From: Petasospora fabianii
Lineage: Eukaryota; Ascomycota; Saccharomycetes; Phaffomycetales; Wickerhamomycetaceae
Length of the DNA: 64,000 nt
Direction: 5' to 3'
Assembly: GCA_022641835.1 (NCBI GenBank)
Contig: CP048717.1
Coordinates: 1,520,726 to 1,584,725 of the forward strand
Part shown: positions 3,987 through 35,374 of the stretch, one piece after another
How the letters are laid out: each line of letters begins with the position of its first letter
Numbering within the stretch: the first letter of the stretch is position 1
The notes under the pieces: model-generated
Told to the model about the DNA's origin: nothing
What the model saw: only the letters and a program-made list of their open reading frames with translations
Database searches by the model: none
Made by a program: the position numbers and the translations under genes

Positions 3987-5225
3987 ATGTCATCAGTGAT
4001 ACAACCACTAAGGAGACTTAGAGCTCACACATTTGCATTTGTGCGGCAGCAGATGTTATGTCAACAGACCTTGCCTCCACATGCTACTCATCTTCCCATC
4101 ATCAGACTCTTCAACACTACAACAAAGGGAACTATGGTACAGGCCAACTCTGATTATGCTTCGATGATCCTTGAGAAGAACCTTATGCATCGTAATCATG
4201 TGAGTTATACCGAATCTCAAACTCTTCGATGTACAGTGTTTGATGCTCAGGGAACATTAGTCTCACCTTCAATGGACATTAAACGTACAGAGCTTATCAC
4301 TAAACATGGACTCTTCCCAAGAGATATCCGCAAGATTGATCAAACAAATCATAGTTTTGAGATAGCACCAGCTATCTCAGTGAGACGTACTTCTATATTG
4401 GTGAGTCTTTTACACATTCGTTGTCTTATCAAAGCTGATACAGTGATCTTGTTTGATGATTCGGGATCAAGATCAAGTAGGGCACATTCACAATTCATTG
4501 CTGAGTTGGAATCTAAGTTGAAAAGTACACAGCAAAGTGATTTACCATATGAGATAAGAGCCCTCGAAGCTGTTCTTGTGAGTGCTTTGGCAAATCTCGA
4601 TGCAGAGATGAAAGTTAACACAACTGTAACGAAAGGTGTTCTTGCCGAGTTAGAAGAAGAGATCACTAGAGAGAAATTAAGATTCTTATTGATTCAGAAT
4701 AAGAAGATTTCCACTTTTGCACAAAAGGCAACACTAGTGAGAGATGTTATTGATGAATTACTTGAAAATGATGACGATCTAGCTGGAATGTACCTAACTG
4801 CAAAGAAGAATGGTGTTCCAAGATCTGTTGATGATCATGCTGAAATAGAAATGCTGTTAGAATCCTATTACAATCACTGTGATGAGATTGTTCAAACCAT
4901 CAATCGTGTTATAAACAACGTTAGAACTTCGGAAGAGATTATCAATATCATCTTGGATAGTAACAGAAATCAACTTATGTTACTTGGATTGAGATTTTCT
5001 ATTGGTTTATTAAGTATGGGTTCAGGACTCTTTATTGCTGCTGCATATGGTATGAACCTCGAGAACTTCATTGAAGAAACCAATTATGGATTCCCTCTCA
5101 TCATCTCTATATCGACCTTAACCACTATATTGCTGTTTGGTTATTCGGTCAAACATCTAAACAAGTTGCAAAAAGTCACCATGATGGGTGAACACTACAA
5201 GAGTGTTAGAGATAATGGTTTCTGA
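3987..5225 (+). CDS. MRS2: Mitochondrial inner-membrane Mg2+ channel, CorA/Mrs2 family
   Basis: 412 residues. The start carries a basic, Ser/Thr/Arg-rich mitochondrial targeting sequence of about 45 residues. The large helical matrix domain contains the family stretch 'ISVRRTSILVSLLHIRCLI...LF'. Two C-terminal membrane segments follow, the first ending in the signature YGMN motif (G355-M356-N357), then an acidic NLENFIEE loop and the second helix. GMN is the selectivity motif of CorA channels. S. cerevisiae has two paralogues, Mrs2 and Lpe10/Mfm1; I cannot say from sequence alone which this represents, but no second copy is in the window. It is followed by the long gene-free region. Confidence 0.93.
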   Translation: MSSVIQPLRRLRAHTFAFVRQQMLCQQTLPPHATHLPIIRLFNTTTKGTMVQANSDYASMILEKNLMHRNHVSYTESQTLRCTVFDAQGTLVSPSMDIKRTELITKHGLFPRDIRKIDQTNHSFEIAPAISVRRTSILVSLLHIRCLIKADTVILFDDSGSRSSRAHSQFIAELESKLKSTQQSDLPYEIRALEAVLVSALANLDAEMKVNTTVTKGVLAELEEEITREKLRFLLIQNKKISTFAQKATLVRDVIDELLENDDDLAGMYLTAKKNGVPRSVDDHAEIEMLLESYYNHCDEIVQTINRVINNVRTSEEIINIILDSNRNQLMLLGLRFSIGLLSMGSGLFIAAAYGMNLENFIEETNYGFPLIISISTLTTILLFGYSVKHLNKLQKVTMMGEHYKSVRDNGF

Positions 5226-5440
5226 CAGCTTTTGTTTATTACGAATCATGATATATGCTTAATGATATGTATTGGTAGGTATACTATAGTGTTATGCTCC
5301 TCGCGCACCCCAGCCCATCCTAACCCCTTTCTCCCCCAATACTTAAAGAACATCATAATAACTACAATATACTTATACAACTACAACTATAACTACAGTA
5401 ATAACTAATATCATATCAATCTTCGGGATCTGAACCCCGT
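5226..5440. other. Intergenic region 3' of MRS2
   Basis: MRS2 3' flank with a C-rich stretch near 5303-5338 and an ACTA/TACAACT-rich stretch near 5360-5410. No gene is seen. It would be the promoter of the proposed structured RNA if that RNA is transcribed on the + strand. Confidence 0.4.
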
Positions 5441-5905
5441 CGTAGTTGTTGTCCTTTTGTGGCCCATTGTCACGGTGACCGAGTCCGAGCCACATAGATA
5501 ATCTCTCTATCAAGAACTCCCTCCATTCTCCATTCTCCTTTCCTCTTGCTCTCTTTGATAAAGGTCTACAAAGTTAACTTTGTCAGCTGAACTTGCACCG
5601 GTCTGCTATGTGATGCAGTACTACCGTCTTGAGTGCTCGAGAGGATTGGTGCCAGTTGCCTCGGGATTCAAAGAAGCTACCATCTTGAGCTTTGAAGATG
5701 ATCCTTGGCCCCCTGTTCACTTTGCTTACCCTCTGGTAGTCATTCAGCTATCTCTTAGTGTTATGTGAAGGTCCAATATTGATCCAGTGGGCCCCCTGGC
5801 CAAGGGACCACAACGGCAATGACGACTTCATGGTTACTGGAGAGTTGAAAAACAGTCATCATGATGATATAGTGTGGATTCAAAAAGGCATACGGTATTG
5901 GTCTA

Positions 5906-6025
5906 ACATGGTTTAACATGTGTCCTTGCAAGACAATCATTAGATTGTCTATAAGTCGAGGCAGGAGTGCTAACTGCCTCCATTCCATTATCATTGTCTT
6001 CTTGGAGAAAGCACTTTAGCTTAAT
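5906..6025 (+). repeat. Hairpin module, copy A
   Basis: Three consecutive hairpins: ACATG/CATGT (5906-5910/5917-5921), then the linker GTCCTTGCA, AGACAAT/ATTGTCT (7 bp, 5931-5937/5944-5950), then GAGGCAG/CTGCCTC (7 bp, 5958-5964/5974-5980). CATTC and a GAGAAAGCACTTTAGCT tail follow. Confidence 0.65.
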
Positions 6026-6051
6026 GAGATCTGTTATGAGTGGAAGTTCTT

Positions 6052-6087
6052 GGAGGTCGTCTATCCATAAGGGAGTCGTACACCTCC
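6052..6087 (+). repeat. Bulged stem, copy 1
   Basis: GGAGGTCG (6052-6059) pairs with CG (6077-6078) and ACCTCC (6082-6087), leaving TAC (6079-6081) as a bulge. The same geometry with a different loop occurs at 7005-7050. Confidence 0.5.
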
Positions 6088-6253
6088 GACTGTCCATTCA
6101 TTTATTACTCAGCTCGGCACGGCTTGGAGATGGAGGTTATCTTCCCATTATTGTTTTACTACTACTTGACCTCTTCGGAGAGGCCGTGCTTTCCTGCCAA
6201 CATTGTGGTTATGTTCAGTTGTCTAATCAGTTTGGCTGAGAGTAGTGTCTTAC

Positions 6254-6380
6254 CATGTGTCTACACATGTGAACTTGCATTTTAGGAGTGTTGCGGTACT
6301 CCTATCTATAGGTCGAGGGGAAGAGCTTAACTGCTTTTCATTCACTATTTTCACCTACTGACACAAGACACTGAACTAAC
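6254..6380 (+). repeat. Hairpin module, copy B
   Basis: CATGTG/CACATG (6254-6259/6264-6269), the shared AACTTGCA linker, TAGGAGT/ACTCCTA (7 bp, 6283-6289/6298-6304), CTATAGGTCGAGG linker, then GAGGGG paired with CTTTTC (6315-6320/6334-6339), which needs three G-U pairs. The CATTC and GACACAAGACACTG tail follow. Confidence 0.6.
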
Positions 6381-6463
6381 GATCCCCTATCCCCCTCTCC
6401 GAGCCTTATGGGTCAATGGACACTGTGGTTCTCCGGTGCTACATCTGATGAGTTATTGGCTTA

Positions 6464-6580
6464 ACACATGTTTACATGTGTGTCCTTGCATGATATGTCT
6501 TTTGACTATCTATAGGTCAAGGCAGGTGAGCTAACTGCCTCCATTCTGGTATCTCATTTTGACAAAGCACTGTAGCTATG
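6464..6580 (+). repeat. Hairpin module, copy C
   Basis: ACACATG/CATGTGT (7 bp, 6464-6470/6475-6481), GTCCTTGCA linker, a stem GATA-T-GTC / GAC-TATC with one bulged T (6492-6499/6504-6510), CTATAGGTC linker, AGGCAG/CTGCCT (6520-6525/6535-6540), CATTC and GACAAAGCACTGTAGCTA tail. Confidence 0.65.
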
Positions 6581-6664
6581 AGCCTTCACAGGGCTCTGTG
6601 GACAATGGTGACTGTTGAATGTTCATGTATCGACACAGCTGTTTTGCTGGATGTGATGTCTAAT

Positions 6665-6765
6665 CATGTGTCTTCACATGTGTCCTCGCTTTGTCGAGGC
6701 TGATGAGCTAACTGCCTTCATTCATTACTACCGCACTCTGACAAGATACTGAGCACCTATAACCC
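6665..6765 (+). repeat. Hairpin module, copy D (shortened)
   Basis: CATGTG/CACATG (6665-6670/6675-6680), GTCCTCGC linker, CCTCG/CGAGG (6684-6688/6695-6699). The third hairpin is degenerate and overlaps the second. TGAGCTAACTGCC, CATTC and CTGACAAGATACTGAGC correspond to the tail of the other copies. Confidence 0.5.
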
Positions 6766-6971
6766 TAATGCCTAAATAGAATATAACTTGAGCTGTCAGT
6801 TGACAGCTTCTCAGAGAGGTGGATTGGTCTCAGGGGAATCGTCCACATTTGGTTACCATTTTAAAGTCGGAGTTGAAGAATGCCCAGCCAAAGAAGAGCT
6901 GCGAGCAGGGAGGAGTCCGTTGCCTTATATCACACCCAGCTTGTATATAATACATGTCTAGGGTGCCCTAA

Positions 6972-7059
6972 GGGCCAGTGCTTCTTCTGGGTCAGTGTCT
7001 GCATGGAGGTCGGTGTTATACCTCTTAGTTGAAGGACTCCGTACACCTCCCGCTGGCCC
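6972..7059 (+). repeat. Bulged stem, copy 2, inside a longer stem
   Basis: GGGCCAG (6972-6978) pairs perfectly with CTGGCCC (7053-7059). Nested inside it, GGAGGTCGG (7005-7013) pairs with CCG (7039-7041) and ACCTCC (7045-7050), again leaving TAC (7042-7044) bulged. Confidence 0.5.
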
Positions 7060-7620
7060 CACCTAACGAGGGGGAAGCCAGTATGGCCTCGCACATGACG
7101 GTGGACTAGACCTACCACGACATTCATCGGGGTGTGAGCTTCCTTCTTGGGACAGTGACATGGGGGCTCGTGTGCACCTCAATAGTAGGCTCCGGATTCC
7201 CCTGTGCCTGGCAACCCGAACGGGGGAAGTCGGCAAAACCTAGGTGGTGTCCCTCGCAGACAGGTGGAGAAATCCTGGAGGGTCATCCCAGGATGTCGGA
7301 CACTTCTCCCCCCAGGTAAAGACTACGGAGATGGTCGTCAGAGTGCCACCTAGGATGGAATAGGAAGGAATTGGTGGTCTCTGGACACGACTATCCCGAA
7401 TAGTCCCTGGCAGTGGGATAAGCCTTACGCTGACCCAAAAGTAGATCCGCGGCCCCTGGGAAGAGGTACTAACGTTGAACATAGACAGGGTGGACAGAGT
7501 GATGGATGATACCCCGGTGGTGTTGTTCTTCCCCCAGGTGGGGATACTCAGGTGGCCATGAATCGTCATAGGCAGTGAGGTGATGCCTCTCACCATAGTG
7601 AGGCATCGGACAAATTCACT

Positions 7621-9380
7621 GGGGCCCAACTCTTTGCACACAACCTGTAGTTTCAACGTAGAGGCCACCATTAAAGCAAGAGGCCCTTCCTTGCTATATT
7701 AATGGTCCCAGTGGGGTCAAAAATGTTGGGTAATCATGGGAGAGCGGGGGCATGTCCAATTTTCGTAGGTATAGGGTCATGTCTGGCTAAGTTGTAGGAA
7801 GGCGCTGGAGATTGAAGGAGGGCAGTTATGAATCTCTAGTGCACATTTAGGGATCTGTTAGATGCATGGTAGTAATAGAATGCTTGTCTTGTGCTTGTAG
7901 TTAATGCGCTGGCCATGTTATGGTAAAATGAAGTATAAAACGGGTGGTGTCATGACGCGTCAGGGAGACATGTAGTGCCTATGTTGTGCCAATTTCAGCG
8001 ATTACAAAGCTCTACAGTAGATTGAGGTGTTTCATAGGTGCTAGTGAGGGCGAGCTTAGGTTTGAGAGTAGCTTTAGGCGGTTATACGCAGATATAGATC
8101 AGAAAATCAACGAAGTGTAACCGGATACACTTGACTATCGTGACAAAACATCATGATAAAGCCTCGGTTTAAAGCTATCCAGCAACAAATGAAGTAAGTT
8201 GTACCACTGTAACTTGAATGAGAAGGCATATGATGCTACTGAAGGCAGTTACAGGCAGTTTGAAGCCATTTTGATGACATATGATCCATTTATAGACGCC
8301 AGAAATTTGCCAGATTATGAAAATGAAATGCCACGCAGTAGGGACGATCATACACGATGGAATTAAGCTATAACAAGGAGCCATGTTGCTCTTATGATAC
8401 ATGGGACGTCTATCTACGCTCTGTATGAGGCTTCTAGAGTTAATTCACGTTCGTCGTTGTATATGATCGTAATCTGGCCCTTGGAGGTTAGTCGATCAAG
8501 GAGGCAGATCGGGATCAAAACGAGATCAGTTGTATAGAACGAGTGCCTATTACCTTTCAAAAAGCCGGAGCTACTATAAAACTATCAATACAAGGCTTCA
8601 CAATGATCTCTCTTGCAGGTCTTCAAGAAAGCGGATGCGAATATATGACGATATTGTATCTGGACCTATTTTCTCGTTTATTTTTTATTCATTTCTGCAT
8701 AATTCGCGAATAATATGCATAATTTGAGAGCGTGCATAGCTATGCCGATAGATGCATAAATACACAGGATATACTCCGTGCAAACTTCTGCATAAGTGTC
8801 GTAAAATACTGCACTTAATGTGAGGAGTGCCGATACTTGCATTAGACTACCGATATATATATATTAGCACCCATCTGATATAAATGACTCCTATACCTAT
8901 ACCTATCTACTTTCTTATAAACACTTTTTTTGTCTAGTAGTCCTCAAACATAGAGTCATCATTTATTGGAAAGTGAAATTGTCTAAGTGTGTGATAAATA
9001 CTTCTTTGTAGCAAAGTTGTATCGTGTGTAAATAGATCTCGGTTAGAGCACTACTATTGATTAGCATTAGTGCGCCGTTCAAAACCAGCACTATCTCGAT
9101 CTATTAAGCGTAAACACATTTTGAAACCAAGACAAGATGCTCCAATATCAATAAGCGACATTTAAATCGCCATGGTTTCTGCCCTTGATGAACACAAAAT
9201 GTCCATCAAAGATTTTGTCCAATCACAAATATTTGTCTTATTTGTCTTGAGGTGTCGACGCGATGTTATTATTTCCCCTTTGAGAAAGTTCAACAGGATC
9301 AAAAACAACAAGACAAGTCATATATTCAAGGGTGTTATACTACTAAACACAGCAGCACAACTTGAAGCAACAACATACAC
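7621..9380. other. Gene-free stretch with no recognisable element except a TGCATAA cluster
   Basis: About 1.75 kb. Short frames exist on both strands but none resembles a known protein. From about 8100 it becomes AT-rich. Four TGCATAA copies and one TGCATAG lie in 8696-8795, and a T7 run ends at about 8932. The last few hundred bases should hold the promoter of the DUF4246 gene. Confidence 0.5.
8696..8795 (+). repeat. Cluster of TGCATAA heptamers
   Basis: TGCATAA starts at 8696, 8716, 8753 and 8789, and TGCATAG at 8733, all in the same orientation. It lies about 585 bp before the DUF4246 start. It could be a regulatory site array; no known factor is assigned. Confidence 0.45.
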
Positions 9381-11072
9381 ATGTCAGCTTCCATTAGTAA
9401 TTCAGTCGAGAAGCGAGTTGTTGGGCGTCTCTCACCGTTCCCACATCCATGGTTCACCAATTGGGCACCGAATGCCCCACCTGCTCAACCACTTAACCAT
9501 TGGAGAATGCAAGAGATGTCTAACGCCATTAGATCGAAGCCTGATTGGCAAAGAAAGTACAAAGATGTTGAGATCAGTCGTAAATGGAGAAATGAGATCC
9601 GTCAACAGTTCCCTGATCTTGATCTCATGGATAAGATGTTCGATTACGTCTTGGCGGAACTTAAGTGGGTCGAAAAGATGGAGAATGAGTACCCTGGAAT
9701 GAAGACCTCGGGATTTGTGATGGAGTGTGACGATCGAATCGTTAGCAGTGTCACTGCAATTGATGAGACAACAAGACACAAGTTTGTTCAACAAGTTCAA
9801 AGTCTTCACGATAGCTTTGGTGAGGAGATTGATTACCATCCAGGGTCTAAGAACCAAGTCATCGATTTGGTACATCCATCTTTGTTCCCAGTTCAATATG
9901 GAACCACAGTGACTGAAGATGATAAAGGAGACTACAAGATTGCTAAATTCTCCTCTGATATCCCTATGGCCAAGGACATGACCGAAAATTCCGAGTTTGG
10001 TGTCTCCAAGAAGTTCCAATGGCTACCAACACCACTTACTCTTAACAATGAAACTGGTCTTTTCCAATTCTCATCCTACATCAATAATTTGCACCCGGTC
10101 CAACACAAGGAGCTTTACAATACACTCGAAACAATTTTCAACAAGACTCTTCCAGGTCTCAATTTTACACTCGCAAGATTTGCTTCGCCTGTTTATGAAA
10201 GAGTTGATGAGGACGTTTATACAAACCCATACCAGACCCATGGGAAGGAGAGCATGTGGGATCATATGAATGCTCTTGAAGAGGCAGCAGATGCTGATCC
10301 ATCTATCGATTTTGAAGATGAGTGGAAGCTTCGTGTCTCCAAATACATGAGAGAAATCTTTTCCCCATACAACAAAGATCCAGAGACCGTCAACTTTGAT
10401 TTAAAAGAATTTGGTGAGGTTAAAGTCATCACTAAGATTGCCACCATTGAGCTCACACCGGAAGATCCTGTGTATGAAGGAGGTTCATGGCATGTTGAAG
10501 GAACAGTGAACGAGGACATTGTTGCCACTATAATCTACTATTTTGATTCTGAAAACATCACAACATCCAAATTGAGTTTCCGTACTGGATTTGGAGAACC
10601 GATGTATGAACAAGGTGATGATCTTGGTGTTGAATTCATCTTTGGATTGCAAGAAGAGCAGCTCTTGGTTAGAAACATTGGTGAAGTGACAAGTGAGACA
10701 AATAAGGTCGTTATCTGGCCAAACCTGTTCCAGCATCATGTCGAGAGATTTGAGCTGGCTGATAAGTCCAAGAAAGGTCACAGAAAGATTATGTGCTTCT
10801 TTATATGTGATCCATATAATGACCAAGTCCTCGCCACGGACAAAGTCCCCATGCAGAGAAAGGATTGGTGGGATGACGCAACACTCGGCATGACAGACGA
10901 AGAGAAAGCCAAGATATCTAAGGCAAGTGATGGAAAACTTCCACAAACTCTCGAACAGGCTTTCAAAATCAGAGAGGAACTCATGGCTGAGAGAGCCATC
11001 GATGCTGAACTTGATCCTGATGACTGTAGTGAAATGGCCTACAGAACTTTCTTCAACCTTTGCGAGCACTAA
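9381..11072 (+). CDS. DUF4246 family protein, probable Fe(II)/2-oxoglutarate-type oxygenase fold
   Basis: 563 residues. The N-terminus has the family pattern of an N-terminal basic/proline segment, 'LNHWRMQEMSNAIRSKPDWQ' type, then a long alpha-beta region. The C-terminal half contains 'GGSWHVEGTVNEDI...YYFDSENIT' and 'WPNLFQHHVERFELADKSK' followed by 'GHRKIMCFF', hallmarks of fungal DUF4246 proteins. H371 and E373 together with a histidine at 452/453 could form a metal-binding facial triad; that is inference. No cellular role is established to my knowledge. CTG codons fall at conserved leucines here, for example residue 449. The gene stands at the edge of the large gene-free region. Confidence 0.8.
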   Translation: MSASISNSVEKRVVGRLSPFPHPWFTNWAPNAPPAQPLNHWRMQEMSNAIRSKPDWQRKYKDVEISRKWRNEIRQQFPDLDLMDKMFDYVLAELKWVEKMENEYPGMKTSGFVMECDDRIVSSVTAIDETTRHKFVQQVQSLHDSFGEEIDYHPGSKNQVIDLVHPSLFPVQYGTTVTEDDKGDYKIAKFSSDIPMAKDMTENSEFGVSKKFQWLPTPLTLNNETGLFQFSSYINNLHPVQHKELYNTLETIFNKTLPGLNFTLARFASPVYERVDEDVYTNPYQTHGKESMWDHMNALEEAADADPSIDFEDEWKLRVSKYMREIFSPYNKDPETVNFDLKEFGEVKVITKIATIELTPEDPVYEGGSWHVEGTVNEDIVATIIYYFDSENITTSKLSFRTGFGEPMYEQGDDLGVEFIFGLQEEQLLVRNIGEVTSETNKVVIWPNLFQHHVERFELADKSKKGHRKIMCFFICDPYNDQVLATDKVPMQRKDWWDDATLGMTDEEKAKISKASDGKLPQTLEQAFKIREELMAERAIDAELDPDDCSEMAYRTFFNLCEH

Positions 11073-31566: not shown

Positions 31567-32005
31567 AGTGGGAGTCAATAGTACCTGATAAACAAGCTTA
31601 TGATAAAGTGACTAAAACAGGGGGTTCTGGGGGTTGCGTGTTATAAAGAGTAATCTCTTGTTTATTCGCGCTTGACGGCCGGGGCACATAACGGGACTAA
31701 ACAGTTAACTAGAGGTAGTAAGAGATATACAGTCTTTAGAGATACTTAGTACTCATTGATACCTATAGATTATACTAATTGTAACCCTAAGCAACTGATA
31801 TATACAGTCTGCCCCTAATAGTTAAGTTATCCCTTAACACCGACTACGCCCGAGCATAAAAGTTTAGGGGGTATATTGACCCGTCACTAAATGGCAGATA
31901 CGCCCAGGTTAAAGTCTCAGCGACCATCGAAACCAATTCCACTTAAACAACAACACAACTATTAAGTTATATCAACTAAGACCACTGAAGGACTCTATTA
32001 ACCCG

Positions 32006-34494: not shown

Positions 34495-35374
34495 ATGTCC
34501 ACTGAAACTACCGTTAAGGCTTCCAACTGGAGATTGGTCGAGGTTGGCCGTGTCGTCCTTGTCAACAAGGGTCAGTACGCCGGCAAGCTCGCCACCATTG
34601 TCGAGATTATCGACCACAAGAGAGTGAGTGAAGATCCATCAAGGAACAGAGTATAAGGCAAGCACAAAAGGTATACAAGTAAATGTTCACACAAGACATC
34701 CATACAGTACACATAAAACACACTGACCATACTGAGCACCATCATATCTACCCAAATCAGCACACGCCAGTTACACACAGCTAACTATTCACTAATTCAA
34801 ATGCCAGAGACACAGATGGGCCATCAACAGACTGTCATATAGCACATACTGTGTTCCCACATGAACATAATCATAACTGATGTGTCCATATCGTTGGACT
34901 CTCTTCAGCGGTCCTGGCACGAAGCCTTGTGTTAGTCTGATCGATGTCACACTACCAATGATACAGTCAGCACAATACATCGGTCACCTTTCATCACAAT
35001 GAATGTCACCCTCTGTGTGCTCTTATTGCTAATGCTCTGTTCTATATCCCATCATTTTCCAGCTATACTAACAAATCTTTTAACAGGCTCTTGTTGACGG
35101 TCCAACCACCGGTGTTCCAAGACAGTCCATCTCTTTGGCTCACGTTGTCTTGACCCCATTGACCTTCTCCCTTCCAAGAGGTTCCAGAACTGCCACTGTC
35201 GCTAAGAAGTTCACCGCTGCCGGTGTTGCTGAGAAGTGGGCTGAGTCTGCTTGGGCTAAGAAGATTGCTCAGAGAGAGACACGTCGTGCTCTTTCCGACT
35301 TTGACAGATTCAAGGTTATGGTGTTGAAGAAGCAGAGAAGATTTGCTGTCAAGAAGGCTGTTGCTAAGGCTTAA
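34495..35374 (+). CDS. RPL14: Cytosolic 60S ribosomal protein eL14, spliced
   Basis: Exon 1 is 34495-34623 (43 codons) and exon 2 is 35087-35374, giving 138 residues, exactly the S. cerevisiae Rpl14 length. Exon 1 encodes [19 protein letters not shown] and a KOW-like segment. Exon 2 begins [19 protein letters not shown] and ends in the Lys/Ala-rich tail typical of eL14. Codon use is strongly biased, as expected for a ribosomal protein. Only exon 2 is long enough to look like a gene on its own. Confidence 0.96.
34624..35086 (+). other. Spliceosomal intron in RPL14 (463 nt)
   Basis: The 5' site is GTGAGT, the branch site a perfect TACTAAC at 35066-35072, and the 3' end TTTTAACAG. It is phase 0, between AGA and GCT. 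It is 7-8 times longer than the other introns here, as is common for ribosomal protein introns. I found no clear snoRNA in it. Confidence 0.93.

Follow-up and report, generated by a model that had tools for sequence, protein, structure and literature searches.

The 64,000 nucleotides of Petasospora fabianii DNA analysed here (the window) have 29 listed open reading frames (ORFs), and the longest gap between them separates MRS2 from a DUF4246 gene (Table 1), where an earlier note on this DNA had placed an array of hairpin modules; both flanking genes have Pfam matches. The array ends 2.6 kb before the DUF4246 start. Within the gap, the putative RNA body has a longest stop-free frame of 94 codons on the plus and 152 codons on the minus strand, a Pfam search returned no match for the three ORFs tested in this region (7240-7671 on the minus strand, 5967-6236 and 6040-6282 on the plus strand) or for 9172-9699 (+).

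Elsewhere in the window, the second-longest gap (2513 bp) contains an apparent RPL14. By eye, the possible split gene at 34495-35374 (+), which we presume to be RPL14, has its ATG at 34495, a GTGAGT near 34624, a TACTAAC at 35066 and a second exon running to 35374; further TACTAAC motifs are present in the window. The eIF2alpha ORF matches a solved protein with 502 bits over residues 1-300 of 301 and the MRT4 ORF another with 382 bits over residues 1-235 of 238, both of which we take to be S. cerevisiae entries. CTG codons, leucine in the translation table, stand by eye in leucine-like contexts (three of seven checked ORFs having any).

Table 1 Features of the gap between MRS2 and the DUF4246 gene, including putative and candidate elements.
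Feature	Position	Strand	Remarks
MRS2	3987-5225	+	left flank of gap; Pfam 5.4e-99
Longest inter-ORF gap	5226..9380	.	4155 bp; among 29 ORFs listed; no convincing ORF
Possible promoter and start region	5280..5420	+	C-rich element 5306-5328, then very G-poor A/C-rich tract
Putative structured non-coding RNA body	5420..7720	+	stem excess; no long ORF; ends approximate
Module A	5895..6030	+	P1 5896-5900/5986-5990 (one mismatch); H1 5906-5921; P2 5924-5928/5957-5961; H2 5931-5950; H3 5958-5980
Module B	6242..6385	+	P1 6243-6247/6343-6347; H1 6254-6269; P2 6274-6277/6314-6317; H2 6283-6304; H3 (shifted) 6320-6339
Module C	6453..6584	+	P1 6454-6458/6547-6551; H1 6464-6481; P2 6484-6488/6518-6522; H2 6492-6510; H3 6519-6541
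Module D	6653..6765	+	P1 6654-6658/6723-6727; H1 6665-6680; P2 6684-6688/6695-6699; H2 absent; H3 remnant 6696-6718
Speculative telomerase template	6758..6787	+	30 nt, TATAACCCTAATGCCTAAATAGAATATAAC; mean unpaired probability 0.69
Candidate Nrd1-type terminator (GTAG cluster)	7626..8025	+	8 in 400 nt, densest of window, both strands
DUF4246 gene	9381-11072	+	right flank of gap; Pfam 1.2e-115

Four diverged copies of one module lie in the gap, and their order, strand and places, as claimed earlier, were recovered by blastn, a repeat finder and a covariance model. Built from the same four copies that it scores, the model gave 137.3 bits for C, 124.5 for A, 124.2 for B and 104.3 for D; it found no fifth copy at E<=10 in the 64 kb, and with filters off everything else in 5230-9400 stayed at or below 6.3 bits. 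When 5230-9380 was searched against the window by blastn, A matched C with 74% identity over 136 columns (E 6e-15), B-C was collinear with C-D over 360 columns (61%, E 4e-11), and B matched D at 70% over 74 columns (6211-6281, 6619-6692), starting upstream of the hairpins. A resembles C, and B and D share a flank, so that the modules arose by tandem duplication; in the simplest history a first duplication made a pair, which was then itself doubled to (A B)(C D). Tandem Repeats Finder reported eight short arrays in 5200-9400, none of which is the module array.

A further blastn match, joining 6317-6368 to 59503-59453 on the opposite strand (73% of 52), was taken as chance; its E value is 0.016 under one scoring and 0.78 under the other, and it falls inside a coding stretch. 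Two similar CGTACACCTCC stretches on the plus strand, at 6077-6095 between modules A and B and at 7040-7058 in the GC-rich 3' part, agree at 84% of 19 positions; both are by eye preceded by GGAGGTCG, and they are perhaps another diverged hairpin repeat.

Anatomy of the module

RNAalifold, run on the four rows, added a closing helix, P1, to the anatomy described before. The P1 sequences are UAGUG/CACUA (B), UGAUG/CAUUA (D), UAUUG/UGGUA (C) and UAUUG/CAUUA (A, one mismatch). The strands of P1 lie 64-95 nt apart, and the helix is weak in single-sequence folds, where the pair probabilities are 0.49-0.74 for B, 0.24-0.42 for D, 0-0.49 for A and 0.01 for C. With RIBOSUM scoring, the conserved 'linker' CCUUG was found to pair with CRAGG to form a second helix, P2, with a separation of 28-36 nt in A-C. 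The four copies have CCUUG/CGAGG (A), ACUUG/CGAGG with the outer pair broken (B), CCUUG/CAAGG (C) and CCUCG/CGAGG (D), so that one and the same P2 pair is U-G, U-A or C-G.

P2 encloses the second hairpin (H2), which had been claimed to pair in all four copies in spite of unrelated sequences. This holds for A, B and C, where the H2 arms pair with their own partner at 8 of 8, 8 of 8 and 7 of 7 positions (the bulged base of C omitted by hand) and with the partner from another copy at only 2-4 positions, and it fails for D, where the alignment has a gap at H2. What had been taken for the second hairpin of D (CCTCG/CGAGG) is in fact the 'linker' together with the 5' arm of hairpin 3, homologous to P2, because D has no H2 and P2 there closes a 6-nt loop. 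The alignments place the extra bases of B, relative to A and C, in hairpin 2, where they supply the upstream-pairing strand.

The first hairpin (H1, CATGTG/CACATG-type) is a CA/TG-type sequence with two registers, so that its apparent base changes may be slippage. The GAGGCAG/CTGCCTC-type third hairpin, ascribed to every copy, stands in A, whereas B pairs in a shifted register (GAAGAGC/GCTTTTC) and the columns homologous to the hairpin no longer fully pair in B, C and D. Every copy retains a 3' segment resembling GCTAACTGCCTYCATTC.

In A, C and D, P2 shares bases with the 5' arm of hairpin 3, and the two are thus mutually exclusive. The base-pair probabilities favour hairpin 3 in A (0.88-0.89) and P2 in D (0.91-0.98, with hairpin 3 at 0), and they are about evenly split between the two in C (0.43-0.44 vs 0.35-0.47). 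In B, the shifted hairpin 3 reaches 0.98-1.0 and P2 0.32, without overlap between the two.

Kept pairing and stem excess

The consensus fold of the four copies has a z of -5.45 on the plus strand, with none of 400 column shuffles as low, and of -3.01 on the minus strand (1 of 400). The plus strand also has the lower z for A+C (-4.40 vs -3.71), A+B+C (-3.91 vs -3.61) and B+D (-2.66, 6 of 400 shuffles, vs -2.34, 9 of 400), i.e., in four of the four row sets tested; the absolute energy of B+D is lower on the minus strand (-61.92 vs -57.83 on plus).

For the structure made of P1, H1, P2 and H2, 90.1% of 91 cells are paired (reached by 6 of 500 shuffles), compared with 25.8-53.9% when the structure is slid along the alignment; P1 and P2 taken by themselves are kept in 95% of their cells. 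Its covariation score is 0.287 (8 of 500), and the slid structures give 0.020-0.140. A two-sided change is seen in four cells (11 of 500) and in only three pairs (31 of 500, and the -2 slide also gives three), and the number of further pair types, 13, is reached by 132 of 500 shuffles. Replacing P2 by hairpin 3 lowers the paired fraction to 87.9% (26 of 500) and weakens the covariation score to 0.272 (62 of 500). A re-dealing test gave P<0.05 in seven of 12 directed comparisons, and in five of 12 if P2 is exchanged for hairpin 3; the best comparison was C to D, in which all 9 of 9 substituted pairs still pair (P 0.0015), with B to C keeping 8 of 8 and A to B, the poorest in kept pairs, 4 of 10 (P 0.26).

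Because these tests draw on four paralogues, are not independent and use a structure derived from the same four rows, they support selection on pairing without proving it. The earlier reading of the modules as selected RNA structure is strengthened by the consensus fold, by the paired fraction and covariation score of P1, H1, P2 and H2, and by the pairs kept from C to D and from B to C; against it stand the comparison of A to B, the weaker score of the version with hairpin 3 and the small number of pairs changed on both sides. Selected RNA structure is therefore favoured but not proven on the sequence data, and four paralogues are suggestive, not decisive, evidence for kept pairing.

The hairpins also exceed chance expectation by number. 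Counting perfect stems with loops of 3-10 nt against 300 shuffles, we found seven stems of at least 6 bp in 5890-6770 (shuffle mean 1.5, as many in 1 of 300, 2.1 expected from the window density), all seven of which are module hairpins, and four of at least 7 bp (0 of 300), while a single stem of at least 8 bp was matched by 23 of 300 shuffles and is not unusual. The excess spans the whole of 5420-7720, beyond the modules, with 14 stems of at least 6 bp (shuffle mean 4.2, 0 of 300; 5.4 expected from the window) and seven of at least 7 bp (shuffle mean 1.09, 0 of 300), and here again the two stems of at least 8 bp are not unusual (13 of 300).

Single hairpins are modest, since only five of the 12 named ones reach a shuffle p<=0.024 by folding energy, and a longest-stem test of the H2 interval gave 12 of 3000 for A and 48 of 3000 for B, against 2519 of 3000 for C, where a bulge breaks the stem. 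Local folding in 150-nt windows on the plus strand is unremarkable (z from -2.45 to +1.2 for starts 5400-7600). The whole-region folding energy is the lowest of 21 stretches, and its G+C is likewise the highest of 21; the strand difference in this energy, -85.5, lies inside the range of 20 other stretches (-91.8 to +107.6). Perfect stems of at least 6 bp are richer elsewhere, with 19 in the 2300 nt from 301 compared with 14 here. That stretch (301-2600), the richest for short perfect inverted repeats, takes in the ORFs 130-942 and 963-2066 together with the gap that follows. The GC-rich 3' part of the region (6900-7700, with 57% G+C in 7001-7500) has perfect stems at 7272-7294 and 7582-7607.

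Strand and candidate transcription signals

Two findings point to plus as the RNA strand, namely its better fold and the G-U pairs within P1 and P2. Upstream of the putative RNA, the G-poor tract is one of four places in the window with a 75-mer having at most one G, and three further places are equally poor in C. The tract looks leader-like, and the region around it may serve as promoter. The candidate promoter element is not enriched elsewhere in the window, where CACCCCAGCCCATCC matches twice, a count that 27 of 100 shuffles also reach, and CATCCTAACCCC four times (34 of 100).

Downstream, the candidate terminator is a cluster of GTAG, which corresponds to the Nrd1 motif GUAG described in PMC4053934, and its density compares with means of 1.05 per 400 nt in the window and 1.59 in noncoding windows. 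The second-densest cluster, with six, lies on the minus strand at 5351-5750, at the left edge of the putative RNA gene. If TGTA or GTAG is counted, 7626-8025 on the plus strand leads again (12), followed by 5351-5750 on the minus strand (11), and with GTAA, GTAG and TGTA a plus-strand window overlapping 7626-8025 ties for first (15); once Nab3 motifs are added, the cluster falls outside the 12 densest windows listed. A branch-point-like TACTAAC at 7467-7473 (+) lies within the putative RNA and could be chance.

Explanations and known systems

With moderate confidence, we favour a single plus-strand gene whose product would be a structured non-coding RNA about 2.3 kb long, transcribed by RNA polymerase II from roughly 5.4 to 7.7 kb. 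Each domain of about 75-105 nt, measured from P1 to P1, would be closed by P1 around H1 (CACATG/CATGTG type) and an interrupted hairpin, consisting of the outer stem P2 and an inner stem H2 of free sequence, and two rounds of tandem duplication would have produced (A B)(C D). In A and C, the GCTAACTGCCTYCATTC-like segment could alternatively pair with the 3' strand of P2 as hairpin 3, giving two exclusive folds, whereas D would favour P2 only and B would form its shifted hairpin 3 clear of P2. The four arms might then act as repeated sites for one protein or complex, offering several equal docking points; such multivalent protein binding through the module arms is conjecture. A more far-reaching version, namely a long non-coding RNA of yeast not described before, which might be the telomerase RNA of its lineage, with a scaffold grown by two rounds of tandem duplication and with some modules bistable between P2 and hairpin 3, appears unlikely when taken as a whole.

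Hairpins could also arise without any RNA function, if duplication copied inverted repeats and template-switch mutation re-made perfect stems, a mechanism described as creating and repairing stems in a single event (PMC8794818). This account is serious for H2 of B, where the extra bases of hairpin 2 supply the second arm and the rebuilt stem may be one mutation, and it fits a CA/TG-rich hairpin 1 that can slip and a hairpin 2 wholly absent from D. It accounts less well for P1 and P2, whose strands lie 64-95 nt apart (P1) and, in A-C, 28-36 nt apart (P2) and stay paired in 95% of cells, and for the G-U pairs that keep both helices on the plus strand, which template switching does not produce; the better consensus fold on plus and a stem excess reaching outside the modules also speak against it, and we consider it improbable overall. 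An RNA made from the minus strand is very doubtful: it could draw on the GTAG cluster at 5351-5750, on a minus-strand consensus fold that is still well below the shuffles, on the lower B+D energy there and on the foot pair of hairpin 3 in C (G-U on minus, A-C on plus), but the z of the plus strand is lower, and P1 in C and D, with three G-U pairs and one respectively, and P2 in A and B, each with a single G-U, pair on plus only. That the inverted repeats are instead sites of dimeric transcription factors, within DNA that regulates the DUF4246 or MRS2 gene, we hold to be scarcely credible, despite the great length of the region upstream of the DUF4246 gene, given that the modules stop well short of its start and that the hairpin 2 arms vary between copies and yet remain complementary, which a sequence-specific factor would not require.

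Among long yeast RNAs invisible to Rfam, telomerase RNA is the obvious suspect, and the telomerase RNA gene of P. fabianii would be a special case of our preferred reading, in which the modules would add scaffold arms ahead of the template. Size and single intergenic location fit, and apart from two matches at chance level Rfam gives none at E<=10 in 5230-8500. Directly after module D, the largely unpaired stretch TATAACCCTAATGCCTAAATAGAATATAAC has a direct repeat of TATAAC 24 nt apart and contains TAACCCTAA; as a template it would specify a 24-nt repeat. In yeasts, the two ends of the template usually share a few repeated nucleotides (PMC6115765), 25-nt telomere repeats occur (PMC8211666), and TAACCC is a conserved template motif in ten aligned RNAs of the Yarrowia clade (PMC6746865). 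On the other side, direct repeats of at least 6 nt at 15-30 nt spacing are common (428 in the 64 kb, six of them in the region), TAACCCTAA occurs again at 31782, and six words from the predicted repeat were met in no paper of the collection searched. Telomerase RNA is expected to have a U-rich pseudoknot (triple-helix) strand and, near its 3' end, an Sm site of consensus AATTTTTGG. The longest T run in 5400-7800 is four, and AATTTTTGG has no exact match on either strand of the window, the nearest relaxed form being AATTTTCG at 7758. We regard this assignment as quite improbable.

Database searches gave no assignment for the locus. Rfam returned no match in the window at the curated gathering threshold, and the permissive matches to TarB (E 1.2) and SNORA2 (E 7.2) in 5230-8500 were rejected as chance. 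ARAGORN found no tRNA gene in the window, which bears on a tRNA or tRNA-derived repeat; a distant blastn of 5400-7700 against a plasmid collection gave no match, and one hairpin-3 pattern each had none in viral contigs or in bacterial and archaeal genome contigs, which are not yeast collections and so say little. A narrow literature search, which is no proof of absence, turned up no repeat-bearing structured long RNA in Saccharomycotina.

We know of few large structured RNAs in yeasts, and of no fourfold tandem arm in yeast telomerase RNAs. The locus would show an RNA scaffold growing by domain duplication while its stems are rewritten, and, with internal paralogues as evidence of kept pairing, it is recognisable from one genome. 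Fast evolution has left telomerase RNA unannotated in most Saccharomycotina genomes (PMC6115765), and TLC1 is a target of Nrd1-Nab3 (PMC4053934). Like TLC1, K. lactis TER1 and the TERs of the Yarrowia clade, the putative RNA would be a long intergenic structured RNA that Rfam may miss, with scaffold-like arms and a possible TAACCC template core, and it differs from them in that the searches found no canonical Sm site and no U-run, and in a template that is a candidate only.

Clusters of box C/D and H/ACA snoRNAs share with it several structured units in one stretch and Nrd1-type motifs downstream; judged by eye against the boxes as we know them, the module copies have no consistent ones, for which reason both snoRNA readings were rejected, and a match at the Rfam gathering threshold is likewise absent. 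In long non-coding RNAs, tandem protein-binding hairpin repeats are exemplified by the A-repeats of Xist and the roX boxes. The four tandem copies of one unit, with stems beyond chance, correspond by description to such a scaffold, in which repeated hairpin units within one long RNA suggest equal docking sites, although the unit here is a domain of several helices whose inner stem varies, and it is found in a yeast.
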